Below the pieces are notes generated by a model. That model saw only the letters and a list, made by a program, of their open reading frames with translations. It searched no databases and was not told the origin of the DNA. A DNA stretch of 64,000 bases from an uncultured beta proteobacterium (GTDB lineage Bacteria; Pseudomonadota; Gammaproteobacteria; Burkholderiales; SG8-41), in assembly GCA_903885665.1 (NCBI GenBank), contig CAISJL010000059.1, positions 1 through 64,000 of the forward strand, given 5' to 3'. Both the position numbers and the translations under genes were made by a program. Positions 6,646-46,986 of the stretch are shown one piece after another. Positions within the stretch are counted from its first letter, which is position 1. Each line of letters begins with the position of its first letter.

Positions 6646-7641
6646 CTATAGTTGGGTCACACTAATCCCGGCATCGCGAATCAACAGCCGCCACTTCGCA
6701 ATCTCAGCACTTAAACGTTCCGTATATCGCTCCGGCGACAACAAATTCTCTTCATACCCTAGACTCGCATAACGTTCTTTGAGTTGTGGCGATTGAATTG
6801 CAGCAAACACGATCTGATTCAATCGTTGTACCAGACTACGCGGCAAACGCGCTGGCCCAATCATGCCTGTAAAACTACTGGTATCAACCTTTGGCAAACC
6901 CAATTCAGCAAACGTTGGTATATCAGACATCAAGCTACTACGCTTTGGGCTGGTGATCGCTAACACTCGCAACTTTCCGCTATTGATAAAAGCTCTAGCA
7001 GTGCCTTGAGTTGTAAATGCCATGCCCAAATGACCACCAACGAGCTCAGTCATCGACTGAGCTGATCCTTTATACGGCACATGAATTAATTCAATCTTGG
7101 CAAATATACGCAATTGCTCACCAGCTAGGTGTGTTGCTGACCCAGCACCTGCACTGCCGTAAGCAAGCTGACCCGGATGCGCCTTCGCCCAGCTCAACAA
7201 TTCCTGCAGTGATTTAAAACCAACGGATTGATTCACCATCAACACCATCGGCGCAGTCGCTAATGGAGCAATCGCAGTAAAATCTTGTGGCGTCGCATAG
7301 GGTAACTGTTGAAACAAGCTTGGGTTAGTGACAAATGCTGCATCAACTACACCAATGGTGTTACCGTCAGCATTGGCCTGAGCAATCAATTGCGTACCTA
7401 GCGTGCTACTGGCCCCAGGACGATTATCTACAACCACTGTACGCCCTAAGCCTTCACTCACAAAGGGTAAAATCATGCGCGCAAGGGTATCGGTTCCTGC
7501 ACCAGGTAAATACGGCACGATCACACGTAAGGGTCTGCCTTGGTGCTGCGCAACAGCCACAAAACAGCTACAGAGCAATACCACAAACAGACCATTTCGT
7601 ATTAAAAAGTGCATAAGCATTCTCAATAATCTAAAACTCAT
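6646..7641 (-). CDS. Bug/TctC family receptor
   Basis: A periplasmic binding protein of 332 residues from the ATG at 7641. That start shares its A with the TAA of the preceding Bug gene (TAATG), indicating translational coupling; the reading frame is open further upstream but would overlap that gene. A second possible start is the ATG at 7614, which begins directly at a hydrophobic signal peptide (MHFLIRNGLFVVLL...FVAVAQ). The family motifs RPLRVIVPYLPGAGTDTL, VVDNRPGASSTLG, HVPYKGSAQS and FTGMIGPARLP are present. It is a tandem duplicate of its neighbour in function, but clearly divergent in sequence. No membrane subunits are nearby, so the ligand and partner are unknown. Confidence 0.93.
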   Translation of the reverse strand: MSFRLLRMLMHFLIRNGLFVVLLCSCFVAVAQHQGRPLRVIVPYLPGAGTDTLARMILPFVSEGLGRTVVVDNRPGASSTLGTQLIAQANADGNTIGVVDAAFVTNPSLFQQLPYATPQDFTAIAPLATAPMVLMVNQSVGFKSLQELLSWAKAHPGQLAYGSAGAGSATHLAGEQLRIFAKIELIHVPYKGSAQSMTELVGGHLGMAFTTQGTARAFINSGKLRVLAITSPKRSSLMSDIPTFAELGLPKVDTSSFTGMIGPARLPRSLVQRLNQIVFAAIQSPQLKERYASLGYEENLLSPERYTERLSAEIAKWRLLIRDAGISVTQL

Positions 7642-8618
7642 TAACCGGGCTTGGCTTTGGACAGTTTGACTACCACAGACCAACGATCAATCTCTTCTTT
7701 TAACATTTTCTTAAAATACTCTGGTGACTCAGAAATGACGTCAGCCCCAGTCTGCGCAATTTTTTGGCGAAAATCCTCTTTTTGAACAGCCTTGATAATC
7801 AAGCCGTTTAACGTATGTACAATGTCATTGGGTGTTCCAGCAGGCACTAGCACACCATACCAAGTTTGAGTGACAAAATCTGCAATTCCTCCTTCAACCA
7901 TAGTCGGTAAAGCGGGTAACAAAGCCGAGCGTTTATCACTGGTAATCGCTAACGCTCTGACCTTACCCGGGGTCATTAAGGGTTGCGCTGAAGGAATATT
8001 ATTAAATGAGAAGTCAACTTCACCACTGGCAAGAGCGACCATTGATGGCGCACTGCCTTTATAAGGAACATGAGTCATATCGACAGCTAAGCGGATCTTC
8101 AACAGTTCTCCTGATAAATGCTGAGAACTACCGCTACCCGAGGATGAAAAGTTTAGTTTACCCGGATTTTTCTTAGCAACCGCAACGAATTCCTTCACTG
8201 TTTTGGCTGGATAGGAGGGATGCACCAATAACAAATTGGGGCTGCTTGCGAAAACAGCAACGGGTATAAAGTCTTTCACCGGATCGTAATTGAGCTTTGG
8301 ATACAAACTTACATTAATCCCTAAGGCTGCAGAGCTCAAGAACAAGGTATAGCCATCAGCAGGCTGCTTAATCATGTATTCTGCAGCCAAATTTTGTGCG
8401 GCCCCAGCACGATTCTCGACGATGACCTGCTGCCCCGTGGCTTCGGTAATCTGCTGTGCAATCATCCGACCCATGATGTCACTCCCCCCACCAGGGGCAT
8501 AGCCAACCACCATTTTAATCGTCTTTGATGGATATTTTTGCGCGACCACCTGTGCGCTGTAAATTACTGATAAAGTCGTCAATCCAGTCAAAACGGAAAA
8601 CATTACAGTTCTAAACAT
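7641..8618 (-). CDS. Bug/TctC family receptor
   Basis: A 325-residue periplasmic receptor with a signal peptide of about 26 residues (to YSAQVVAQ). Seen are KYPSKTIKMVVGYAPGGGSD, VENRAGAAQNLAAE, PADGYTLFLSS, HVPYKGSAPSMVAL and TWYGVLVPAGTP, the standard landmarks in the usual order. It is the first gene of a two-receptor unit; its TAA overlaps the next ATG by one base. The ribosome site is a weak GGGG stretch. It is divergent from the flavin oxidoreductase gene at 8989, so the 370-base gap holds both promoters. The bound carboxylate cannot be inferred. Confidence 0.95.
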   Translation of the reverse strand: MFRTVMFSVLTGLTTLSVIYSAQVVAQKYPSKTIKMVVGYAPGGGSDIMGRMIAQQITEATGQQVIVENRAGAAQNLAAEYMIKQPADGYTLFLSSAALGINVSLYPKLNYDPVKDFIPVAVFASSPNLLLVHPSYPAKTVKEFVAVAKKNPGKLNFSSSGSGSSQHLSGELLKIRLAVDMTHVPYKGSAPSMVALASGEVDFSFNNIPSAQPLMTPGKVRALAITSDKRSALLPALPTMVEGGIADFVTQTWYGVLVPAGTPNDIVHTLNGLIIKAVQKEDFRQKIAQTGADVISESPEYFKKMLKEEIDRWSVVVKLSKAKPG

Positions 8619-17286: not shown

Positions 17287-18285
17287 TTAATCAATTTTTA
17301 TTTTTACAGTACTCGATAGCTTAACCCATTTTTCAACTTCATTAGACATCCATTTCTTAAATTCTGCAGGTCCACCCCCAACAACCTCAGCTCCCTGTGT
17401 CACAATCCGTTCATTAATCTCTTTGGTTTTTAATATTTTAAGCAACTCAAGATTGATACGATTCACAATCGATTGTGGGGTATTTGCAGGGGCCAGCAAA
17501 CCATACCAAGCATCTGAAGAGTAACCGAGCAAGCCCGACTCTGAGATGGTTGGTAAATCAGGGAATAAAGAAGTTCTGCGCAAAGACGATACTGCTAGGG
17601 CATTGAGACGCTTTGACTTTACAAATGGACTGGCATTTATCGTATTACTAAACATTAATTGAACATTGCCACCAACCAGGTCAACCAATGCCGCAGAACC
17701 GCTGCGATGCGGTACATGAATCATTTTCGTCTTTGCCATAAACTGAAATAATTCAAATGCCAGATGCGTTCCTGAACCATTACCCGCCGAAGCATAAAAG
17801 TACTTTTGTGATTGCGCAGACCCTAGACTGACAATATCTTTCACCGATTTGAATGGGGCCGCAGGATGAGCGACCAATAGATTCGGAACGGTTGCGATCA
17901 AAGTAATTGGCGCAAAGTCTGCAATGGGTTGATATCTTAAGTGTGCTTGTATTCCTGCATTGATAGCGTGACTAATGGTCACTGCGAGCAAGGTATATCC
18001 ATCAGGACTTGCACGTGCAGTTAATTCTGATGCCAACACAGTTCCTGCACCAGGCCGATTGTCAGCAACAATTATTTGCCCGAGTGATGCACCCAAAGGT
18101 GGTGCAATAAGTCGTGAAATTGTATCTACGCCACCACCAGGTCCACCAGGCACAATGAGGCGTATTGGCTTATGCGGATATGTTGGCGCTTGCGCCCATA
18201 CTGGCACAGAAAGCAGAATACCCACAATAGGCAGTATCCAGATCGCAAGCTTAGATACAAAACTCTTCAAACACTTATAAGGCAT
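17287..18285 (-). CDS. Bug/TctC family receptor
   Basis: A 332-residue receptor with a long signal peptide (n-region MPYKCLKSFVSK, hydrophobic core to about residue 31, ending PVWAQA). Bug motifs: YPHKPIRLIVPGGPGGGVDT, ADNRPGAGTVLASE, PDGYTLLAV, HVPHRSGSAAL and WYGLLAPANTP. HVPYKG is altered to HVPHRSG, a change in the substrate-binding loop. It lies 35 bases after another, more divergent Bug gene and 64 bases before the aldolase in the leuCD operon, so it probably binds the operon's substrate. The SD is weak. Confidence 0.94.
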   Translation of the reverse strand: MPYKCLKSFVSKLAIWILPIVGILLSVPVWAQAPTYPHKPIRLIVPGGPGGGVDTISRLIAPPLGASLGQIIVADNRPGAGTVLASELTARASPDGYTLLAVTISHAINAGIQAHLRYQPIADFAPITLIATVPNLLVAHPAAPFKSVKDIVSLGSAQSQKYFYASAGNGSGTHLAFELFQFMAKTKMIHVPHRSGSAALVDLVGGNVQLMFSNTINASPFVKSKRLNALAVSSLRRTSLFPDLPTISESGLLGYSSDAWYGLLAPANTPQSIVNRINLELLKILKTKEINERIVTQGAEVVGGGPAEFKKWMSNEVEKWVKLSSTVKIKID

Positions 18286-23117: not shown

Positions 23118-24095
23118 TTATTCGCCTTTAATTCCTGCAGCTTTAATCACTTTAGCCCACTTTGTGAATTCCGCTTGCATGTACTGCGCATATTGCTCTG
23201 AACTCATCTCAGCAGGCTCTGCGCCAGACTTCTTCAGACCTTGCTGAACCTCTGATGACTTTAGCGCACGAGCGGTTTCTTGATACAAGCGATGTAATAT
23301 ATCTGAAGGGGTGCGTGCAGGCGCAGACAATCCAAACCAATTACTGACCGCAAAACCCTTCACTCCACCTTCAGCAACGGTTGGGATCTCAGGTGCAGCA
23401 GAAGTTCTCTTTTCTCCCGTGACCGCAACGGCTATCAATTTGCCAACCCGAACCTGCTGAATAACGGTTGGTATATTGCCAAAGCTTAAAGAAATCTGAC
23501 CGCCGACTAAATCGATCAAGGCTGGCGCACCACCTTTGTAAGGAACGTGCACCCATTTAACCCCAGTCATATATTGAAATAACTCGCCTGATAAATGACC
23601 TGAGGATCCAACTCCCTGCGAACCATAAGCAATCGAAGCATTATTTTTCTTAGATAAGGCAATCAAACTTTTAATGTCGCGCACTGGAAAGGACGGATGC
23701 ACAACCAGCATATTTTGTGACTCAGCAACCAATGCGATCGCACTAAAATCTTTGGGAAAATCAAAACTTAATTTCATTAAAGAAGGATTGATCGTATCTC
23801 CAGTAGTATTCACCTTGATCGTATAACCATCGGCGGCCGCTCTCGCTAACAAATCGGAGGCTAGCGCGCCATTCGCACCGGGCCGATTATCAACCGTGAT
23901 CGACTGACCCATATAATCGGTAAATTTAGGTGCCAGAATACGCGCAACAAAGTCAGCTCCTCCTCCCGGCGCCGAACCTACCAAAATTCTAATGGGTCGC
24001 GTGGGATATAACTGAGCTGCCGTATCTAATACGACAACCAAGAATCCCACAACACACAAAAACAGCTGACAACAGATAGATTTATATTTATTCAT
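23118..24095 (-). CDS. Bug/TctC family receptor
   Basis: A 325-residue receptor with signal peptide to about residue 27 (VVVLDTAAQ). Motifs: YPTRPIRILVGSAPGGGADF, VDNRPGANGALASDL, ADGYTIKVN, HVPYKGGAPALIDLVGG and NWFGLSAPARTP. It follows the decayed amidohydrolase gene by 39 bases on the same strand, so it was probably that enzyme's partner receptor; such receptor-amidohydrolase pairs are common in Burkholderiales. The SD is poor. The reading frame is intact although the neighbour is broken. Confidence 0.94.
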   Translation of the reverse strand: MNKYKSICCQLFLCVVGFLVVVLDTAAQLYPTRPIRILVGSAPGGGADFVARILAPKFTDYMGQSITVDNRPGANGALASDLLARAAADGYTIKVNTTGDTINPSLMKLSFDFPKDFSAIALVAESQNMLVVHPSFPVRDIKSLIALSKKNNASIAYGSQGVGSSGHLSGELFQYMTGVKWVHVPYKGGAPALIDLVGGQISLSFGNIPTVIQQVRVGKLIAVAVTGEKRTSAAPEIPTVAEGGVKGFAVSNWFGLSAPARTPSDILHRLYQETARALKSSEVQQGLKKSGAEPAEMSSEQYAQYMQAEFTKWAKVIKAAGIKGE

Positions 24096-35199: not shown

Positions 35200-36312
35200 T
35201 TAGCGACGCCTAAAATCTTCAACTGAACGAGCCAACTCCCCATTCGCTGTTTTCAGTGCGCGGGTTACCGGCAAGGTTGCACCAAAAGTCGGCACAAACG
35301 CCGAATGCTTACCCGCCCCCCCCACTACGGCAATCAGCAAATCCTCGGGCTCACGCACAACATATACGACGTCATCAGGCTTAGGGTTTGCTAAGCGATC
35401 TTTAAAAGTCACCCGAATTCGCCTGTCCACGTTCTCTTGCGAGAACTGACGCACTAACACCGTGGCATGCTGCTGCAAAAAGCGCTTGGCCTCGGCCTTG
35501 GTAAAACCAGCGGCGACGGTCTGCGCATGCTCTGGCCCCATAATCACCAAGGGCTGCGCTTTGTAATAAATATCATTACAGCCCGCCACCCCCATACTAC
35601 CGGCGATGGTCATCAAAATACCTTCAGGCGTTAGACTTTCATGGTCGTTGATGTTGTGTGGACACTCCGCGCCAATCACAGTGACTGCACTAGTCGTTGC
35701 TGTAAAACCACGCTCCACATGGAGCGGCGCCCAAGGGCTTGCCACTTCGTTCTCAGCCACCACATAGCTATACTTTGCTGGCGAACCAAAAGTCGACATG
35801 TCACCAAGACCCGGAATAGCGCCGCCAATATTCAACAATGACAAACGAATCGCCCTACCAATCGTGGCATTAGCTTGAAAGCCCGGACCAAAAGCGTTAT
35901 GACCGCCGTTAATATTCAGCTCTTGCACAATCGGTCCGTTCACAATCACCAATGGCGCACATAAATGGGTAGTCGCTTGCACCCCATAGAGATTGAGCGG
36001 CTCCTCGCACATGGCCTCGATCGCCAACATCAATAGCGGAAAGTAACGCGGCTCGCACCCAGCCATCACCGCATTTGCTGCTAGCAACAGTGGTGTAGCC
36101 TCGCCCCAGCGCGGCGGGACTTTGGCAATTGGCTCATTCCACGGACGATCACAATATTCCAGCATCGCCGCCACCCGCGCCTCTGTAGGTGGCACTATGG
36201 GTAAACCATCACCCCAGCCCTTATCCCAAATCAATCGATTAATCGTATCAAAATCATCCGTGGCCTCTATGCTGGCACCGGGCTGATTGAGCAATTGCGC
36301 TAAGTTAGCCAT
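35200..36312 (-). CDS. Protein of unknown function coupled to the UGSC selenoprotein
   Basis: A 370-residue, apparently cytoplasmic protein. I cannot name the family. Seen: WDKGWGDGLPIVPPTEARV near the N-terminus, an alanine-rich AANAVMAGCEPRYFPLLM, NGGHNAFGPGFQANATIGRAIRLSLLNIGGAIPG in the middle and a Rossmann-like DLLIAVVGGAGKHSAFVPTFG close to the C-terminus. Cys residues are C77, C108, C124, C140, C247 (GAECPHNINDHES) and C272 (GVAGCNDIYY). AGGAG precedes ATG 36312, which overlaps the selenoprotein stop by eight bases; the frame extension to 36384 would overlap far more. Tight coupling suggests the two proteins form a complex or act in sequence. Confidence 0.85.
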   Translation of the reverse strand: MANLAQLLNQPGASIEATDDFDTINRLIWDKGWGDGLPIVPPTEARVAAMLEYCDRPWNEPIAKVPPRWGEATPLLLAANAVMAGCEPRYFPLLMLAIEAMCEEPLNLYGVQATTHLCAPLVIVNGPIVQELNINGGHNAFGPGFQANATIGRAIRLSLLNIGGAIPGLGDMSTFGSPAKYSYVVAENEVASPWAPLHVERGFTATTSAVTVIGAECPHNINDHESLTPEGILMTIAGSMGVAGCNDIYYKAQPLVIMGPEHAQTVAAGFTKAEAKRFLQQHATVLVRQFSQENVDRRIRVTFKDRLANPKPDDVVYVVREPEDLLIAVVGGAGKHSAFVPTFGATLPVTRALKTANGELARSVEDFRRR

Positions 36313-36850
36313 TTTGTTTCTCCTGTGCCAATAAGGCGACAAATTGCGGTACAACATGGTCCGCTCTGGCTTTGACCTGCTCAATACCCAAACCGCCCAA
36401 GGGGTGTGGAATTAACATCAACGGCAGATCTGGAACACCAAATACCCGCGCTTGGGCTTGCCCTAGCTTCTGGAACACATCTGAACACACCACAGCAGTG
36501 GTCAACCCACGCTTACTTAAGTTCGCCATGTCGTGGACACTCCACGACGTGCACGAGCCTCAATCAGCCATGGCAGAGATGACGTAATCCGCCCCCCCTG
36601 CCAATTGGTCGAGCAATGCATCGGGGGCGGGTAAACTCACACTCTCCTTGCGCAAGGTCAGGACTGAGGCCACGGGCAATAACGCTTTCACCCCCTCCAC
36701 AATAAAACGCAACAAATGATCTGCATTACCCTTACTGTTATCTAAGACGCCTAAACGTATACCACCACTGGCCACGGCCCGTTTTGTGGTTTCTACAGCA
36801 ACCTGTGACATTTGAGCCTCAGGCACGACTAATCGCACTGTGTGCTGCAT
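36305..36850 (-). CDS. UGSC-family selenoprotein with in-frame TGA (Sec97)
   Basis: A 181-residue protein if the TGA at 36560-36562 is read as selenocysteine. Before it: MQHTVRLVVPEAQ..., GIRLGVLDNSKGNADHLL and YVISAMAD; after it, in the same frame: GSCTSWSVHDMANLSKRG, VCSDVFQKLGQAQARVFG and MLIPHPLGGLG. U97-G-S-C100 is the redox motif that names the UGSC (seleno)protein family, first noted in marine metagenomes. A hairpin suited to a bacterial SECIS follows the TGA. AAGGGGG is five bases before the ATG. Function is unknown; a thiol/selenol redox or sulfur/selenium-transfer role is inferred from U-x-x-C. The alternative, a nonsense mutation, is unlikely because both halves are conserved around it. 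Confidence 0.9.
36530..36548 (-). promoter_or_regulatory. Candidate bacterial SECIS element
   Basis: On the coding strand GTCGTGGA and TCCACGAC form a perfect 8-bp stem closed by GTG. The loop begins 19 bases after the TGA, within the range known for bacterial SECIS elements, and contains a G at its first position as SelB recognition usually needs. The same bases encode T-S-W-S-V-H-D. Confidence 0.8.
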
Positions 36851-37247
36851 GCTAACCCCCTTGAAAATCTAAAAAATCAGTTTTTTAAAAAATCCATTGA
36901 ATCAACTGAAATCAGTGCTTAAGCACTATTCCACAACTATCCACCACTTATATTATCGCAATGCGAACATCTATCACATGTTAGCCACAATAAATAATCC
37001 AAAAGCACGATGGAGATCTCACAACAATTTAAATATTAATTATATATAATCAATAGCTTATAATTAAATTTTAAGATTTTATATACCATATTGGCGCGCA
37101 GCCCAGGTTTTCTACATTGTGGACAGTTCTTGCTGAAGACTGCAAATTAATAAAATTAGTTTATTATACGGTCGAAATAAAAATTACAACAAATCACTCA
37201 GCCATTACAACAATAGTTCACCAAGAATACTGCGGCCTATCAAAACT
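36851..37247. other. Divergent AT-rich region, about 400 bases
   Basis: This stretch lies between the selenoprotein operon and the RND efflux operon. Besides the 14-bp palindrome it holds long A/T runs (TTTTTTAAAAAA at about 36889) and a very AT-rich block at 37020-37085. There is no gene, and no clear ribosome site before the RND ATG at 37248. Confidence 0.5.
36914..36927. promoter_or_regulatory. Perfect 14-bp palindrome upstream of the selenoprotein gene
   Basis: AGTGCTTAAGCACT lies 63 bases before the selenoprotein ATG, in its probable promoter. It is a plausible operator for a dimeric repressor; no adjacent regulator gene is seen. Confidence 0.4.
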
Positions 37248-40200
37248 ATGTCAGCAACACCCACCCCAAAATCCCCTGAGTCCAGCTTATCTGTTGTAGC
37301 CTTAGCACTACGCCGCCCTTACACTTTTATTGTTATGGCGATGCTTATTCTGTTGGCAACCCCGTTCGCACTACGAACAATGCCAACCGATATTTTTCCA
37401 GAGATTAACATACCCGTAGTGAGTGTGATCTGGACCTACAACGGTCTGTCTGCCCAAGAAATGGGACAGCGGATTGCCAATCAAACAGAGCGCGGCTTAA
37501 CCACCACGGTCAGCGATATTGAACATATAGAATCGCAGTCGCTACCAGGTGTCACTGTTGTTAAAATCTTCTTCCAACCCAACGCCAATATTCAAACTGC
37601 AATCGCTCAAGTCGTGGCCGGCGTGCAACCCCAGGTGCGTCAATTACCTCCTGGGATTACACCACCCTTAGTGATTAAATACTCTGCTTCCAGTATCCCG
37701 GTTATTCAGCTTGCACTGTCAAGCTCGACCATGCCTGAACAAGCTGTAGTAGACGCTGCGGTCACCCAATTACGCCCGCAATTAATTACCATTCCTGGTG
37801 TCGCGATACCATTCCCTTATGGCGGTAAATCTAAAGTCGTCTCGGTCGATCTCGATATCCAGGCCCTGCAAGCGCGCGGCTTGTCACCCTTTGATGTGGT
37901 CAATGCAATTGGTGCACAAAACCTGATTCTGCCATCAGGCACGGCCAAATTCGATGACACCGAATACAACGTCAAGGTCAATAGTTCACCCAGTATCTTG
38001 AGCGAACTCAATGACTTGCCCGTACGTACCACTAGTGGTGCAACGATATATGTGCGCGATGTCGCCAATGTGCGCGATGGCTTTAACCCACAAACCAATA
38101 TCGTGCGACAAGATGGCATTCGCGGGGTTTTACTATCAGTCCTCAAAAACGGGGGCGCCTCCACTCTCGACATCGTAGATAACCTAAAAACCTTATTACC
38201 TCGGGTGAAAGAAATTCTCCCAAGTGATCTGGTTATCACCCCTTTATTTGATCAATCATTATTCGTCAAAGCAGCAGTCAAAGGCGTGATCTTAGAGGCC
38301 TTTATTGCAGCCGGCCTTACCGCAGTCATGGTGTTGCTGTTCTTAGGCAATTGGCGCACCACCTTAATTATCGCGCTAACTATCCCTTTGTCGATTTTGG
38401 CCTCTGTATTGGTACTATTTGCATTTGGCGAGACACTCAATCTCATGACCCTAGGAGGGCTGGCATTATCCGTGGGTATCTTAGTTGATCAGGCGATTGT
38501 CACCATTGAAAATATAGAACGACATTTACATGCTGGCACAGAACTCAATGAAGCTATTCTCATTGGTGCAGGCGAGATCGGCGTGCCAGTTTTCGTATCC
38601 ACAGTCTGTATTTGTATTGTATTCGTACCCATGTTCTTCTTATCAGGGGTCGCCCGCTTTCTGTTTGTACCCATGGCTGAAGCAGTGGTGTTTGCGATGA
38701 TTGCTTCCTACATTTTGTCACGGACCTTTGTGCCAACGATGGTAATGTTGCTAATGCGCTCCCAGCAATCTCATGTCGCAAGCACCAACACCTCTCTCCT
38801 TCAGCGCGTTTACTTAAGCTTCAACGCCCAATTCGAGGCAGTGCGCGCCAGTTATACCAACGTACTGACCAGCATACTTGAGCGCCAAAAGTCATTTTCT
38901 ATCATATTCAGCCTATTCTGCTTAGCCTCCTGCGCCCTCTACCCATTTTTGGGAAGAGACTTCTTTCCAAGCGTTGATGCCGGCCAAATTCGACTTCACA
39001 TGCGGGCACCTACAGGCACCCGCATCGAAGAGACGGCTTTGATTGCAGAACAAGTTGAAGTGGCAATTCGAGAGATCATTCCCAAAGAGCAACTTGAAAC
39101 CATTCTCGACAACCTTGGCGCACCGAATAGCGGCATTAATCTCTCCTATAGCAACTCCGGTACTATTGGCACCCTCGATGGCGAGATTTTAATATCCTTG
39201 CGCGAAGGTCACAGCCCTACCGATGAATTTATTACCAAATTACGTAGCGAATTACCGCGCCGCTTTCCTGGTATTGAATTTTTCTTTCAGCCTGCAGACA
39301 TCGTGACCCAAATTCTAAACTTTGGTCTACCTGCAGCGATTGACATACAATTCTCCGGAAATGAAATTGCGAAAAATAAAATACTCGCCGATCAACTGGT
39401 GAAATCAATTCAAAAAATACCTGGCGCTGTCGACGTGCATGTGCATCAACGCTTAGACAACCCAAGCTTAGAATTACAAATGGATCGCTCACGCTTGCAG
39501 CAAGTCGGACTCACCGCCTTCAATGTGGGTCAGAATCTTTTGATTGCATTGTCTGGTAGCGCCCAGACCTCTCCATCATTCTGGCTCAACCCGAAAAACG
39601 GCGTAGTGTATCCGATTGTGGTTTCAACGCCGCAATACCGTATTGATTCGCTAGACGCATTATTAAACATACCAGTCGGTGCACCACTGACAAACAATAC
39701 AGTGGCCACTAACCCTCAAATTCTTGGCAATTTAGTTGAAGCGCGCCCTGCTCGTAACCCGTCTATCGTTTCCCGCTACAACCTCTTGCCAGTAGTCGAC
39801 GTCTACGTCAGTGTACAGGGTACAGATTTGGCAAGCGTAGCCAATCAAGTACAAAAACAGATCGAAGAGATACAACCAAAACTGCCGCGTGGCTCCCAAG
39901 TCACGATGCGCGGTCAGGTAAAAACTATGGAGTCCTCATTTATTGGTCTGGGTGTAGGTCTGGCCATGGCGATTGTGCTGGTATATCTATTGGTTGTAGT
40001 GAACTTCCAATCTTGGATTGATGCGTTAATCATTATCGCTGCTCTGCCAGCGGCGCTAGCCGGTATTGCTTGGATGCTATTCCTCACAGGAACCACTTTG
40101 AGTGTGCCAGCGCTAACTGGAGCAATTATGACTATGGGTGTTGCTACGGCAAATAGCATTCTGCTGATTTCATTTGCGCTCGATCGAGTCGCTGAGGGCG

Positions 40201-40484
40201 CTGATCCATTAACCGCTGCTATTGATGCGGGATCTACCCGACTTCGCCCAGTGTTAATGACAGCACTTGCTATGATTATCGGCATGATCCCAATGGCCCT
40301 AGGCATTGGTGAAGGTGCTGAGCAAAACGCACCACTTGGACGGGCAGTCATTGGCGGGCTTTTGTTTGCAACATTTTCTACGCTACTTTTCGTTCCAGTA
40401 TTGTTTGCGGGTATTCACCGCTACCTTAATCAACGCAACGCCTCAGCAGCAATAGCGTCTGCAAACCCGCATACCACGCATTAG
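37248..40484 (+). CDS. RND efflux permease, HAE1-like
   Basis: A 1078-residue inner-membrane proton antiporter with two repeated halves and large periplasmic loops. N-terminus RRPYTFIVMAMLILL, DIFPEINIPVV, and TM4 GGLALSVGILVDQAIVTIENIERH are family landmarks. The proton relay differs from AcrB: Asp407 is kept (D414) but Asp408 is Gln415, and the TM10 Lys940 position is Ala968 (VATANSIL). Such changes occur in a proteobacterial subgroup. First gene of a complete pump operon (permease, adaptor, outer-membrane channel). Substrate unknown. The ATG lacks a visible ribosome site. Confidence 0.95.
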   Translation: MSATPTPKSPESSLSVVALALRRPYTFIVMAMLILLATPFALRTMPTDIFPEINIPVVSVIWTYNGLSAQEMGQRIANQTERGLTTTVSDIEHIESQSLPGVTVVKIFFQPNANIQTAIAQVVAGVQPQVRQLPPGITPPLVIKYSASSIPVIQLALSSSTMPEQAVVDAAVTQLRPQLITIPGVAIPFPYGGKSKVVSVDLDIQALQARGLSPFDVVNAIGAQNLILPSGTAKFDDTEYNVKVNSSPSILSELNDLPVRTTSGATIYVRDVANVRDGFNPQTNIVRQDGIRGVLLSVLKNGGASTLDIVDNLKTLLPRVKEILPSDLVITPLFDQSLFVKAAVKGVILEAFIAAGLTAVMVLLFLGNWRTTLIIALTIPLSILASVLVLFAFGETLNLMTLGGLALSVGILVDQAIVTIENIERHLHAGTELNEAILIGAGEIGVPVFVSTVCICIVFVPMFFLSGVARFLFVPMAEAVVFAMIASYILSRTFVPTMVMLLMRSQQSHVASTNTSLLQRVYLSFNAQFEAVRASYTNVLTSILERQKSFSIIFSLFCLASCALYPFLGRDFFPSVDAGQIRLHMRAPTGTRIEETALIAEQVEVAIREIIPKEQLETILDNLGAPNSGINLSYSNSGTIGTLDGEILISLREGHSPTDEFITKLRSELPRRFPGIEFFFQPADIVTQILNFGLPAAIDIQFSGNEIAKNKILADQLVKSIQKIPGAVDVHVHQRLDNPSLELQMDRSRLQQVGLTAFNVGQNLLIALSGSAQTSPSFWLNPKNGVVYPIVVSTPQYRIDSLDALLNIPVGAPLTNNTVATNPQILGNLVEARPARNPSIVSRYNLLPVVDVYVSVQGTDLASVANQVQKQIEEIQPKLPRGSQVTMRGQVKTMESSFIGLGVGLAMAIVLVYLLVVVNFQSWIDALIIIAALPAALAGIAWMLFLTGTTLSVPALTGAIMTMGVATANSILLISFALDRVAEGADPLTAAIDAGSTRLRPVLMTALAMIIGMIPMALGIGEGAEQNAPLGRAVIGGLLFATFSTLLFVPVLFAGIHRYLNQRNASAAIASANPHTTH

Positions 40485-40497
40485 GAGATTCGCTGCA

Positions 40498-41832
40498 ATG
40501 TCGCAACTTAATCATTCGTCAAGCATAGCACCACTAGAGCAACAACAAAGTCTGGCCAGCCGTCAAAAAACTATGCGTCACGCCCGCACTGTTCTTATCA
40601 TCTTGCTTGTTTTAATGGCTGCCGGCGCTGCCAGAACCCTGATGAGTAGAAGTTCAAATGCAAAAGTACTCGAAAATCGTACTGCAGAGAGTAGCGAGAT
40701 TAATGTACGAGTGACGCCTGCGAACGGCTCTGCTGCTGATCAAACTCTAGTCTTACCAGGCACTCTATTAGGTTTAGTGCAGACACCAATTTCCGCACGT
40801 TCTAGCGGTTATCTTAAAAAATGGTACAAAGATATCGGTAGTACCGTCAGCAAAGGAGATCTGTTAGCCGAGATTGAAGCACCAGAAATCGATCAACAAC
40901 TCAGCCAAATGATTGCCACACAGGCGCAAATGGCCTCCAGCTTAGCGTTGGCGCAAAGCACTGTTGCCCGTTGGGAAGATCTACGTAAAAAAGATGCGGT
41001 CTCACAGCAAGAGTTGGATGAAAAGCGCAGTGGTTTTGTACAGGCTCGTGCTAACTTAGCTGCTGCAGACGCTAACGTAGAGCGTCTGCGTCAACTCGAA
41101 AGCTTTAAACGAATAGTCGCTCCTTTCTCTGGCATTATTACAAAACGCAATGTTGATGTTGGTGATTTGATTGACGCTGGTGGTGGTGCTGGACGCGCTT
41201 TATTCATTTTGACCCAAACCGATCCGCTCAAAGTATATGTCAATCTACCGCAATCCTACACACAACTGGTTAAGGCCGGTCAGGAGGTTGATGTCGTACA
41301 AGCAGAACTCGGTGGCCGTAAGTTTAGCGGGAAAGTGGTGCGCACTGCTGGGGCGATTGATACGGTGACTCGTACCATGCAAATGGAAGTCGCCTTATCA
41401 AACAAAGATGGCCTATTGCTACCTGGTGCATTCGTGCAAGTGCTACTACCTATGAAGGCCAGCAAAACCACTGTAATCTCAACCAGCACCTTAATGTTCC
41501 GCGGTGATGGCATTAGTGTTGCAACCGTGAGTCCAAGTGGCGAAGTTAAAATTCAAAAAATTAAACTGGGCCGAAACTTTGGTAATCGCATTGAAGTGAT
41601 CAGTGGTCTAGATGGAAGTGAATTGTTGATATTAAACCCCCCAGATGCACTAAGCGATGGTGAGAGAGTCAAAATCACAAAAAACAATCCCAAAGATGCT
41701 AAAAAAGGTGATGCTAGCGAAGATGGTGAAAAAGGGAACGCTAAATCGGAAAAGCCTGGAAAATCTGAAATCACTGAAAAAAGTGATCAAAACGACAGCG
41801 CCGAAAAAAAATCTAAAAAAGGTAAAGAATGA
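40498..41832 (+). CDS. RND periplasmic adaptor (HlyD/MFP family)
   Basis: A 444-residue adaptor with an N-terminal membrane anchor (about 28-48). Lipoyl half-motifs ISARSSGYLKKWYKDIGSTVSKGDLLAEIEAPE and FSGIITKRNVDVGDLI flank a coiled-coil hairpin (about 130-200). Beta-barrel and membrane-proximal domains follow. The last 50 residues are a Lys/Glu/Asp-rich tail (KDAKKGDASEDGEKGN...) coded by A-rich DNA, probably disordered. It starts 13 bases after the permease stop with AGGAG upstream, and its stop overlaps the channel gene's start (ATGA). Confidence 0.95.
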   Translation: MSQLNHSSSIAPLEQQQSLASRQKTMRHARTVLIILLVLMAAGAARTLMSRSSNAKVLENRTAESSEINVRVTPANGSAADQTLVLPGTLLGLVQTPISARSSGYLKKWYKDIGSTVSKGDLLAEIEAPEIDQQLSQMIATQAQMASSLALAQSTVARWEDLRKKDAVSQQELDEKRSGFVQARANLAAADANVERLRQLESFKRIVAPFSGIITKRNVDVGDLIDAGGGAGRALFILTQTDPLKVYVNLPQSYTQLVKAGQEVDVVQAELGGRKFSGKVVRTAGAIDTVTRTMQMEVALSNKDGLLLPGAFVQVLLPMKASKTTVISTSTLMFRGDGISVATVSPSGEVKIQKIKLGRNFGNRIEVISGLDGSELLILNPPDALSDGERVKITKNNPKDAKKGDASEDGEKGNAKSEKPGKSEITEKSDQNDSAEKKSKKGKE

Positions 41833-43325
41833 TCACTGTTCGCTCATGGGCTATATTGGGAATGTCTTGCGCATTAAATGCCTGTACAGTAGGTCCCGAT
41901 TATCAGAAACCCACGTTAGAAATGCCTGCGAAATGGACCCTAGAGTCGCCGTGGCGCGTCAGCACCCCCAAAGATGATGCACCAAAAGGTGCTTGGTGGT
42001 TAAAATTTAACGATGCACAACTTAACGAGCTCCAAGAAAAAGCAATTGCAAATAATCCTACTCTAGCAGTTGCTACCGGACGCTGGGAACTGGCGCGTAG
42101 TGCACTCAATGCGGCCACTGCAGCACTCTATCCACAGATGAGTGCAAATATCGCTGAAACACGTGCTCGAATCTCATCACAACGCGCACTCACCCAAAAT
42201 GATAAGCCACTCTATACAACCACACAAAGTGAAACGAAGCCTGTACTGGGTGTGAGCTACGAGGCCGATATATCAGGCAGAGTTAAACGGACTCTAGAAC
42301 TCAGCGCGGCCTCTTCTGAGCAAGTTCGTGCCGACTTAGAAAACATTCGCCTATTAGTGTCCGCAGATTTAGCCACTGCCTACTTTAACTTACGTGCTGT
42401 TGATATCGAAATCGATGTATTGTCTCGCTCAATCGCCTTACAGCGTCGCGCTCTGGATCTGGCTAATGCGCGGCATGACCTTGGCGCAACCTCTGGCATA
42501 GAAGTCTCGCAACAACAAGCGCTCATCGATTCAACACTCACTCAAGTCGACATCCTCAAGCGCCAACGGGGTCAGTTTGAGCATGCTATTGCCACCCTAA
42601 TTGGCACGCCTGCGCCTTCTTTTAGTTTACCCGCCATGGTCACTTTGCTAAATCCACCCAAAGTATCGATTGGCGTGCCTTCAGACTTGCTTGAGCGGCG
42701 CCCCGATGTTGCTGGAGCAGAACGCGCGATGGCAGCAGCCAATGCCCAAGTTGGGATCAGTACAGCAGCTTATTACCCCAGCTTCACGCTAACTAGTACA
42801 TATGGTTCTCAATCGAGAGATGATTCAACTTTGTTTAGTGGCCCCGCTTTTATTTGGTCAATTGGCTCTTCATTGGTACAACCAATATTTGATGGTGGCA
42901 GAATAGCTGCTAACATCAAAAGTTCTAAGATTAGCTACGATATGGCAGTATCTAGCTATCGCCGGGTGGTGCTCACCGCCATGCAAGAAGTTGAAGATGG
43001 CATTACTGGTATGACTGCGCTAGAGCGCGCGCACACTCAAGCTACTGCCGCTACTGCTAGCGCTCAAAAAGTATTGAACCTTGCTAACGCTCGTTACGAA
43101 GGTGGCGTAGCAAGCTATCTTGAAGTCATTACAGCACAACAAGCGTTGCTGGTCAGTCAACGACTCGTTGCTCAGTTAGTTGGTCAACGTTTGCTCAACG
43201 CAGTATTTCTCATTAAGGCCTTAGGGGGTGACTTTGAAGGCATGTCCCAAGCACGCACAGAGGCCAACACACCCAGTGAACAACAAACTGCCAAAGAGCC
43301 CGCTCTGCGTCTCGTTAGCCAATAG
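41829..43325 (+). CDS. Outer-membrane efflux channel lipoprotein (NodT family)
   Basis: A 498-residue TolC-like factor. Lipobox L-N-A-C puts the lipidated Cys at 19, followed by VGPDYQKP. Two OEP repeats are seen, the second with RRPDVAGAERAMAAANAQVGISTAAYYPSFTLT and QPIFDGGRIAANI. The C-terminus is a polar tail. The start ATG overlaps the adaptor's TGA by one codon frame shift (ATGA), so the three pump parts are made from one message. It is convergent with the crotonase gene. Confidence 0.95.
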   Translation: MITVRSWAILGMSCALNACTVGPDYQKPTLEMPAKWTLESPWRVSTPKDDAPKGAWWLKFNDAQLNELQEKAIANNPTLAVATGRWELARSALNAATAALYPQMSANIAETRARISSQRALTQNDKPLYTTTQSETKPVLGVSYEADISGRVKRTLELSAASSEQVRADLENIRLLVSADLATAYFNLRAVDIEIDVLSRSIALQRRALDLANARHDLGATSGIEVSQQQALIDSTLTQVDILKRQRGQFEHAIATLIGTPAPSFSLPAMVTLLNPPKVSIGVPSDLLERRPDVAGAERAMAAANAQVGISTAAYYPSFTLTSTYGSQSRDDSTLFSGPAFIWSIGSSLVQPIFDGGRIAANIKSSKISYDMAVSSYRRVVLTAMQEVEDGITGMTALERAHTQATAATASAQKVLNLANARYEGGVASYLEVITAQQALLVSQRLVAQLVGQRLLNAVFLIKALGGDFEGMSQARTEANTPSEQQTAKEPALRLVSQ

Positions 43326-45999: not shown

Positions 46000-46986
46000 T
46001 CACTCGACCTTTATATTCGCCAACTTAATCACTTCAGACCAACGCAGCACATCAGCTTTAATGATCTGCAAAAACTCATCAGGTGAACTAGCAACAATAT
46101 CCATACCCATACTTGAGAAGCGCTGTTTAGTATCTGGCTCCTTCAGAATACTTTGGACTTGCCCACCCAAATACTGAACGGTATTCAACGGCACACCTCT
46201 AGGCGCTAAGTAACCCTGCCAGTCACGCACCTCAATTCTCCCCGCGCCAGCTTCTACCATAGTTGGTACCTCGGGTAATAACAAAGAACGATCCTTAGAT
46301 GCGACAGCAAGTGGGCGCAAGCGATTTGATTTAATAAAGGGTAATGCAGAAGGCATTGAAGCAAAACTCATTGTCACATTACCTGCGACCACATCAGCAA
46401 CTGCCGGGCTACCACCCTTGTAAGCGATATGGGTCAGCGTAATACCCGTTTGCTGTGCAAAAAATTCACCAATCAAATGTGGTGCGCCACCAATCCCTGA
46501 CGAAGAAAAAGTCATGACTGCTTGCTTATTCTGTTTAGCCGCTTGAATGAGATCGACAACCGTCATGACCGAGGACTTAGGGCTTACAACCAATACATTA
46601 CCTACCGCTGCAGTCAACGATATGGGGGCAAAATCACGTACTGAATCAAATGGCAACTTGATTAAGCTCGGATTCACCGCATGACGTAGTGATACAAAGC
46701 CTAGGGTATAGCCATCAGCCTCAGCCTTTGCGACTACCCCAGTGCCCAAAATACCTCCTCCACCACCACGATTATCAATAACAAACTGCTGCCCCAATCG
46801 CTCACTCAGCCGTAGCGAAATTATTCTCGCAGCTGCATCACTACTACCGCCAGGTGCAGCAGAGACAATCACTCGAACGGGTCGAAGTGGATAGCTTTTT
46901 TTAACAACATCAAGGCTCTGAACAGCGGAGGCTACAGTTGCAGCGCTTAAAACTATCGCCACCGGTAGTATTGTTAAATAATTCAA
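46000..46986 (-). CDS. Bug/TctC family receptor, probable TTG start
   Basis: A 328-residue receptor from TTG 46986, which has AGGA nine bases upstream and begins directly at a good signal peptide (NYLTILPVAIVLSAATVASA). The longer frame from a TTG at 47031 would put 15 polar residues before it. Motifs: YPLRPVRVIVSAAPGGSSD, IDNRGGGGGILG, ADGYTLGFV, HIAYKGGSPAV. DNRPG is changed to DNRGGGGG. It is isolated from catabolic genes; the GT61 gene follows. Confidence 0.92.
   Translation of the reverse strand: MNYLTILPVAIVLSAATVASAVQSLDVVKKSYPLRPVRVIVSAAPGGSSDAAARIISLRLSERLGQQFVIDNRGGGGGILGTGVVAKAEADGYTLGFVSLRHAVNPSLIKLPFDSVRDFAPISLTAAVGNVLVVSPKSSVMTVVDLIQAAKQNKQAVMTFSSSGIGGAPHLIGEFFAQQTGITLTHIAYKGGSPAVADVVAGNVTMSFASMPSALPFIKSNRLRPLAVASKDRSLLLPEVPTMVEAGAGRIEVRDWQGYLAPRGVPLNTVQYLGGQVQSILKEPDTKQRFSSMGMDIVASSPDEFLQIIKADVLRWSEVIKLANIKVE

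Follow-up and report, generated by a model that had tools for sequence, protein, structure and literature searches.

A predicted UGSC-family selenoprotein, its frequent partner protein and their paralogs in a betaproteobacterial genome

RESULTS

A UGSC gene predicted to be read through an in-frame TGA

The sequence analysed is a stretch of 64,000 nucleotides (hereafter the window) from an uncultured beta proteobacterium (GenBank assembly GCA_903885665.1, contig CAISJL010000059.1). Its minus strand carries a gene predicted to encode a selenoprotein of the UGSC family (36305..36850), together with a partner gene that overlaps it. One open phase runs from 36850 to 36305, TAA stop included, and is broken by a single TGA (36560..36562, minus strand). 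With this TGA read as selenocysteine (Sec, U), the gene has 181 codons with Sec at codon 97; the product context is SAMAD-U-GSCTSWSVHD, and UGSC forms residues 97-100. An initial annotation had joined two half-frames across the TGA into a 181-residue selenoprotein. The open reading frames (ORFs) 36560-36850 and 36305-36529 do lie in one phase, and product length, position of U, coordinates and motif were all confirmed. The overlap of the stop with the next gene was likewise borne out: the TAA occupies 36307-36305 and the ATG of the partner gene is at 36312, with 8 nt shared. The occurrence of the gene as a single TGA-interrupted frame is far beyond chance. A GGGGG run 5 nt ahead of the ATG (36856..36860, minus strand), found by eye, is a putative ribosome-binding-like sequence.

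The product matched Pfam PF24696 with 152.6 bits (gathering threshold 25) over residues 8-175, through the TGA, in agreement with the family originally named. With Cys scored for Sec, the NCBIfam model NF041046 (UGSC_fam) gave 124.4 bits, 0.6 under its cut-off of 125. All remaining Pfam matches to the protein were below cut-offs, including EMG1 at 17.5 bits, and an Rfam search of 36000-37000 gave no match. Columns 97, 98 and 100 were invariant across the 41 rows of one UGSC alignment (A1); in another (A4, 42 rows), at least 90% of the rows retained Cys100, the second Cys of the UxxC motif.

Conservation of the TGA and of a downstream hairpin

A contig scan for UGSC homologues returned at least 80 loci, mostly titled Betaproteobacteria or Burkholderiales; the 80 loci referred to below are those listed. 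Three of the 81 tblastn rows (80 loci and the window) stopped short of residue 97. All 78 rows that covered it (77 loci and the window) had a stop at the Sec site; this stop was TGA, and the frame was otherwise open. Exactly one TGA, at the motif, was also found in each of 38 UGSC rows from the window's own genome (G000) and genomes G424 and G418, a set that excludes the window copy and in which L141 and L142 represent a single gene in two halves. Relatives thus retain the TGA and an open frame after it; the combination of a lost Sec/Cys site and decay downstream of the TGA, which would have spoken against the initial annotation, was not seen. Some contigs of metagenome-assembled genomes (L027, L048, L085 and others) are titled Bordetella parapertussis or Chitinophaga pinensis and match betaproteobacterial loci; these titles look wrong.

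Cys forms occurred at L127 in genome G143 and, with a broken frame, at L126 in G277 (L126/L129, one broken-frame Cys homologue, was left out of A1 and of the hairpin counts below). Nine of the 11 plasmid UGSC domains scoring above 100 bits were Cys forms; the TGA was found in those of Acidovorax (L186) and Paracoccus (L193). Within a draw of 398 genomes, selA was strong in the TGA-form genomes G139 and G311 (561 and 517 bits), absent from G143 and sub-threshold in G277 (19.3 bits). The predicted form of the site, Sec or Cys, tracks the presence of the Sec machinery in these four other UGSC genomes of the draw.

Downstream of the UGA lies a predicted bacterial Sec insertion sequence (bSECIS), the upper hairpin of which, GUCGUGGA-GUG-UCCACGAC (36548-36530, minus strand), has an 8-bp stem and a 3-nt GUG loop placed 19 nt from the UGA. 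The 51-nt fold had an energy of -19.8 kcal/mol (z = -2.96 against 200 shuffles). Loop size and its starting GU, stem length, distance from the UGA and energy per 51 nt agree with all four bSECIS criteria given by a 2026 review (PMC13188914, section 5). Across 76 distinct 51-nt windows (duplicate loci L113-L117 and L120 excluded), folding was more stable than in synonymous resamples, with a mean z of -2.13; 65 of the 76 were below -1 and one was above 0. The pairing is conserved as well. Standard pairs filled 467 of the 504 stem cells in 63 distinct 36-nt windows, compared with 80-244 when the 3' side was slid by 1 to 3 nt as a control; at least 7 of the 8 pairs formed in 55 windows, and two-sided changes were present, for example from G-C to A-T or to C-G.

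The bSECIS criteria were passed by 95 of 96 distinct 45-nt windows. What discriminates is the length of the stem: with a looser 4-bp stem, 31% of synonymous resamples and 5 of 10 Cys homologues passed as well, but at least 7 bp were found in 91 of the 96 windows, as against 11.1% of 1,920 resamples and 2 of the 10 Cys homologues. A paralog type with the motif UGSCTPAV has a different hairpin in another register. By fold, published criteria and covariation, a SECIS hairpin is predicted to follow the UGA of the window gene.

Selenocysteine machinery

The initial annotation expected selA, selB, selD and a tRNA-Sec in the same organism, and all four were found in the assembly (3.03 Mb in 187 contigs, 99.97% complete, 3.09% contamination). 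Contig C163 carries selA (557 bits) and selB (434 bits) side by side and the tRNA-Sec (75.6 bits), and selD (411 bits) lies on contig C50 (21632-22561), all above cut-offs. ARAGORN identified the tRNA of the sel locus as tRNA-SeC with anticodon tca. Judged by these matches, the cell carries the whole Sec machinery. It is almost certain, on sequence grounds, that the window gene is a UGSC-family selenoprotein gene whose UGA is translated as Sec.

The selD gene itself contains one in-frame TGA, and SelD of this genome is probably a selenoprotein too. In G311 (L200 5009-10689), UGSC, partner, tRNA-Sec and selB are consecutive and selA is divergent, a compact arrangement of Sec genes and their client; on the Paracoccus plasmid, selB lies 3.4 kb away from the UGSC/partner pair.

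A frequent partner gene

The overlapping gene (35200..36312, minus strand) encodes a 370-residue protein of an unnamed family, here termed the partner. No significant Pfam or NCBIfam family was found for it, alone or over 41 relatives, a sequence search returned no solved relative, and comparison of UGSC with the partner yielded no homology. The partner was present in all five UGSC genomes of the 398-genome draw, while the other 393 gave a single match of 18.5 bits (G364). A same-strand partner accompanied 37 of the 38 UGSC rows of the three genomes, the exception being at a contig end. Within these 37 modules the two were fused in one frame in 20 and separate genes in 17, ordered UGSC-partner in 30 and partner-UGSC in 7.

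A profile count over the 80 loci found a same-strand partner within 1.2 kb in 62, one 3.6 kb off in a single locus, and none in 17. Four of the 17 are cut by a contig end, two are partial UGSC matches (L098, L100) and 11 are intact stand-alone copies of the UGACTSW type (L059, L060, L062, L064, L066, L067, L069, L072, L078, L083 and L090). The type is mixed, as eight such loci do have a partner. On plasmids, 12 of 14 partner regions contained a UGSC profile match, one of them degenerate; L192 and L197 had none. Pairing of UGSC and partner is frequent and not strict on either side, and the description of the partner as obligate was dropped after the 80-locus count showed the 11 intact copies.

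The 2008 Global Ocean Sampling (GOS) paper, in the part used here, reports a UGSC/Unknown_1 fusion, with Unknown_1 in few aquatic organisms (PMC2398784). This likewise joins a UGSC domain to a second conserved domain, and the partner family is probably Unknown_1; unlike in that report, as far as its consulted part goes, the partner also occurs here as a separate neighbouring gene with neighbours of its own.

The Vibrio europaeus plasmid pVEu (L196 6368-8053) encodes a UGSC-partner fusion with a degenerate UGSC domain (25 bits), adjoining aconitase X and a gene annotated as phosphopyruvate hydratase.

Paralogs in the genome and its relatives

Twelve UGSC matches in the window's genome, each with one TGA, resolve into ten loci: the window, C157, C113 (two), C12, C175, C167, C64, C4, and a gene split over C82 and C19. 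The last was counted once, being one gene over contig ends with identical overlapping text. A match on C40 was dropped as a remnant whose TGA is off the Sec site; there (L112 1-420) a UGSC N-terminal remnant passes into unrelated text at the contig end, by truncation or as an assembly chimera. The partner had eleven matches, one an orphan on C50. These further copies, the partner and the functional context described below go beyond the initial annotation.

UGSC was found in 40 of 61 related genomes, the window's own included: in all 20 genus mates (4-12 matches), all 16 family mates (2-47) and 3 of the 24 remaining members of the order, where counts can include gene fragments. Each row had one TGA among the matches listed for the 61 genomes. 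The copies examined numbered 18 in G418 and 10 in G424 (about 30 contigs, with three copies on one 1.24-Mb contig). Identity between rows within a genome never exceeded 68.3%, which argues that the paralogs are not strain duplicates.

The window gene shares with the published UGSC family the motif, a near full-length profile match, TGA at the Sec site and a bSECIS. In the printed accounts consulted, the family is abundant but uncharacterised; here, one genome holds ten loci, most with a partner. A table of the 2016 census (PMC5029168) gives UGSC the values 26 and 33, taken as organisms and genes although the column meaning is inferred, and the part of PMC13188914 used puts the largest bacterial selenoproteomes at 57 and 63 selenoprotein genes over all families.

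Uptake and catabolic neighbourhood

Genes next to the paralogs of this genome include those for TctC receptors, PrpD, aconitase, phosphoenolpyruvate (PEP) mutase/isocitrate lyase (ICL), CaiB, TauD and acyl-CoA dehydrogenase, and an FAD monooxygenase-like gene. With TctC genes so abundant in this genome, simple nearness was not used. A same-strand TctC gene within 500 bp upstream was found for 4 of 9 modules of this genome (chance about 2 × 10−5 with 237 TctC candidates), the nine excluding the window's and including L140, whose upstream side is hidden by a contig end; overall, 12 of the 37 modules had one. Annotated plasmid regions carry CoA transferases, receptors of the tripartite tricarboxylate (TTT) or tripartite ATP-independent periplasmic (TRAP) type, PEP mutase, aconitase X or amidohydrolases near the pair or the partner. 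The neighbours of Paracoccus L193 differ, being sulfur-handling genes and selB, and the Embleya region (L195) carries no annotation. In Acidovorax sp. T1, the UGSC region is on a conjugative IncP plasmid near IS1071 and IS91-type elements.

Thioredoxin reductase-like neighbours

Arthrobacter sp. ERGS1:01 has the run trxB-trxA-partner-UGSC and Roseovarius sp. THAF8 the run partner-UGSC-trxB. TrxB-like genes also lie near modules of Variovorax SRS16, V. boronicumulans, G139 and G424, which makes six modules in all. Three of the four plasmid proteins passed the TIGR01292 cut-off (343.45). The label TrxB-like is used because the protein of the window's genome (230.6 bits) and that of V. boronicumulans (159.5 bits) scored below it.

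At the sel locus of this genome (L148 on C163, 5490-9824 and 11417-11511), a gene for a TrxB-like flavoprotein containing CADC begins about 14 nt past the end of selA-selB, and the tRNA-Sec lies further on. The TrxB-like protein encoded after selB may be a dedicated reductase of Sec enzymes.

Predicted folds and kinship with known proteins

Confident AlphaFold models were obtained for both UGSC and the partner, with a predicted local distance difference test (pLDDT) score of 90.2 and 91.4 and a predicted template modelling (pTM) score of 0.84 and 0.90, respectively. The DSSP order of the UGSC model is E-H-E-H-E-H-E-H-E-H, a strict β/α alternation, with residue 97 just ahead of the helix after the third strand. 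The thioredoxin fold runs β-α-β-α-β-β-α, with two consecutive strands. Thioredoxin-fold selenoproteins share with UGSC the UxxC at a helix start after a strand, but their two consecutive strands are absent from the UGSC model. A thioredoxin-like fold has been suggested for UGSC in parts of the printed literature; the model, a prediction at pLDDT 90.2, counts against it. Foldseek and VIA-align placed UGSC among assorted alternating α/β proteins (FtsZ, dehydroquinase, CheY, PurE, flavodoxin-like); no thioredoxin was among the rows listed, which excludes nothing. Sequence searches for solved relatives of UGSC or the partner gave nothing credible (best E 0.0046, to a designed protein, and 0.1 or worse elsewhere). 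Fumarase, chorismate-mutase and Toblerone folds were considered for the partner, but TM or Z values were low and no function was drawn from them.

Kinship with GrdB (PF07355) was examined with the seven distant PF07355 members reached. Hhalign placed UGSC onto the CPVC of such members in the expected register (P = 0.017 and 0.0062). PF07355 was unlisted at E up to 10 for the window protein and the 42 A4 members, although HMMER filters drop most matches above 0.1, and the PF07355 match to L130 stops immediately ahead of the CxxC, which may leave the region outside the profile. With statistics this weak, homology was not established and GrdB was kept as an analogy. Loci L130-L136 represent a PF07355-related family of about 300 residues with a conserved NCPxC motif, found in 7 of the 398 genomes, one of them just under the cut-off.

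DISCUSSION

By analogy, UGSC and the partner would form a Sec enzyme of two parts that is driven by thioredoxin, acts on small carboxylates and works in the manner of glycine reductase, an explanation to which, as a whole, we give an even chance. We regard the Sec step as almost certain; the reaction is what we infer. UGSC would supply a small alternating β/α domain with Sec just before the helix after the third strand, and the partner the larger, substrate-specific part. The Sec selenolate may attack or reduce a small carboxylic-acid (or CoA-activated) substrate. Cys100 would then act as the resolving residue, leaving the enzyme as a U97-C100 selenenylsulfide, to be recycled by thioredoxin or a thioredoxin reductase-like flavoprotein. 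This logic is likened to that of proline reductase and of protein B of glycine reductase. Where paralogous modules lie next to different TctC/Bug receptors and catabolic enzymes, each would have a substrate of its own. Taken separately, the proposal that UGSC and the partner make up one two-part enzyme appears probable.

In glycine reductase, according to the sections of PMC3091704 and PMC10298544 drawn on here, NADPH supplies the electrons, which reach GrdA and GrdB by way of thioredoxin reductase and thioredoxin, and resolution of a carbon-selenium intermediate yields a selenenylsulfide. The use of NADPH, thioredoxin reductase and thioredoxin as reductant, as given in the part of PMC3091704 used, is likened to UGSC with its trxB/trxA neighbours. 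GrdB and PrdB are also UxxC selenoproteins with a second subunit. In contrast, they share no significant profile match with UGSC, the partner has no Pfam family and nothing ties it to the pyruvoyl-forming proproteins GrdE or PrdA, and UGSC occurs also in organisms with dioxygenase- and monooxygenase-type genes.

Other explanations were weighed against the same data. That the TGA is a true stop, leaving two half-genes or a pseudogene, has next to no probability and is refuted for practical purposes: frame, motif and SECIS are conserved, the Sec machinery is complete, and the Cys forms of the genome draw sit where selA is missing or sub-threshold. All that it can draw on is that a standard reading gives two ORFs and that both TGA-form plasmid genes (Acidovorax and Paracoccus) are annotated in pieces. 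A thiol-redox protective or repair role, with UGSC peroxiredoxin- or thioredoxin-like and the partner its specific client or scaffold, is rather unlikely. The UxxC motif, the grouping adopted in reviews, the trxA/trxB neighbours and the 11 stand-alone copies would suit such a role, but strands and helices alternate strictly in the model, and the ten diverged loci, the up to 47 matches in a relative and the catabolic and uptake settings are better explained by substrate diversification.

Rather than being the redox centre of a reductase, Sec might act as a metal ligand or nucleophile in non-redox chemistry (elimination, isomerisation, C-C or C-X cleavage) that is mainly the partner's work. We consider this unlikely, since the second Cys of UxxC is so widely kept in A4 and trxB/trxA genes are neighbours, even though lyases and hydratases are represented among the neighbours by the aconitase, PrpD and PEP mutase/ICL types, and the Vibrio europaeus fusion and the orphan partner on C50 fit a partner of this kind.

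Several observations weigh against the two-part, thioredoxin-driven enzyme itself. Neither substrate nor activity nor protein has, to our knowledge, been described. The 11 intact UGACTSW-type copies have no partner within 1.6-4.1 kb on either side. Because of them we lowered our estimate for a joint enzyme from highly probable to probable; the same 80-locus count brought the explanation as a whole from slightly better than even to even, and took a little from the already tentative proposal of a new enzyme class set out below. Conversely, the partner occurs without a recognisable UGSC nearby on C50 and at plasmid loci L192 and L197, and tblastn over plasmids located it in 24 records, compared with 11 for UGSC. 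In the Vibrio europaeus fusion, Sec and Cys are both absent from the site, and the partner may work without either. A TrxB-like match was present at only 8 of 179 loci, many of them short-flanked, and at none for the window module; two of the eight are the same place in G139 and one is the selAB locus of the window's genome. At least 150 TctC genes occur in this genome (150 of 237 candidates scored), and nearness to them is partly background; 25 of the 37 modules, and the window's, lack a same-strand TctC gene within 500 bp upstream. The partner fold has no convincing match, with nothing at E ≤ 0.001 in Foldseek searches of the PDB or viral models, and the hhalign probability of GrdB kinship was only 2.7% and 6.1%.

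More broadly, UGSC and the partner might represent a new class: a selenoenzyme of two components, driven by thioredoxin, that would cleave or reduce small organic acids and be a functional counterpart of glycine/proline reductase outside the strict anaerobes, with tens of receptor-tied paralogs per genome in one betaproteobacterial family. This is a tentative proposal, well short of an even chance. If true, selenium would be a central cofactor of dissolved-organic-matter catabolism in that family. The sections used of two surveys count 255 UGSC sequences in the GOS data, most frequent in non-marine samples (PMC2398784), and assign UGSC 8.2% of selenoprotein genes (PMC9402790); by such partial accounts it is among the commonest selenoproteins of aquatic metagenomes. 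The portions of the UGSC literature compared, outside which stand Haft & Tolstoy 2025, Haft & Gwadz 2023 and Zhang & Gladyshev 2007, describe no function and no betaproteobacterial expansion. Added here are the partner's spread, the ten-locus radiation, the alternating fold and the uptake, catabolic and thioredoxin-reductase context; through partner, reductase link, fold and neighbourhoods, an 'unknown redox protein' becomes an enzyme hypothesis that can be tested. According to the part of PMC13188914 consulted, retention of selenoproteins is rare in aerobic bacteria, and the paralog radiation would sit badly with that statement if these lineages prove aerobic.

Other features of the window

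TctC/Bug receptor genes inside the window lie at 1803-2765, 6649-8618, 17290-18285, 23121-24095 and 46003-46962. An efflux operon of the resistance-nodulation-division (RND) type (37248-43322) is divergent from the UGSC gene; its pump is of the AcrB family by Pfam, and membrane-fusion-like and outer-membrane-like genes were recognised by eye.

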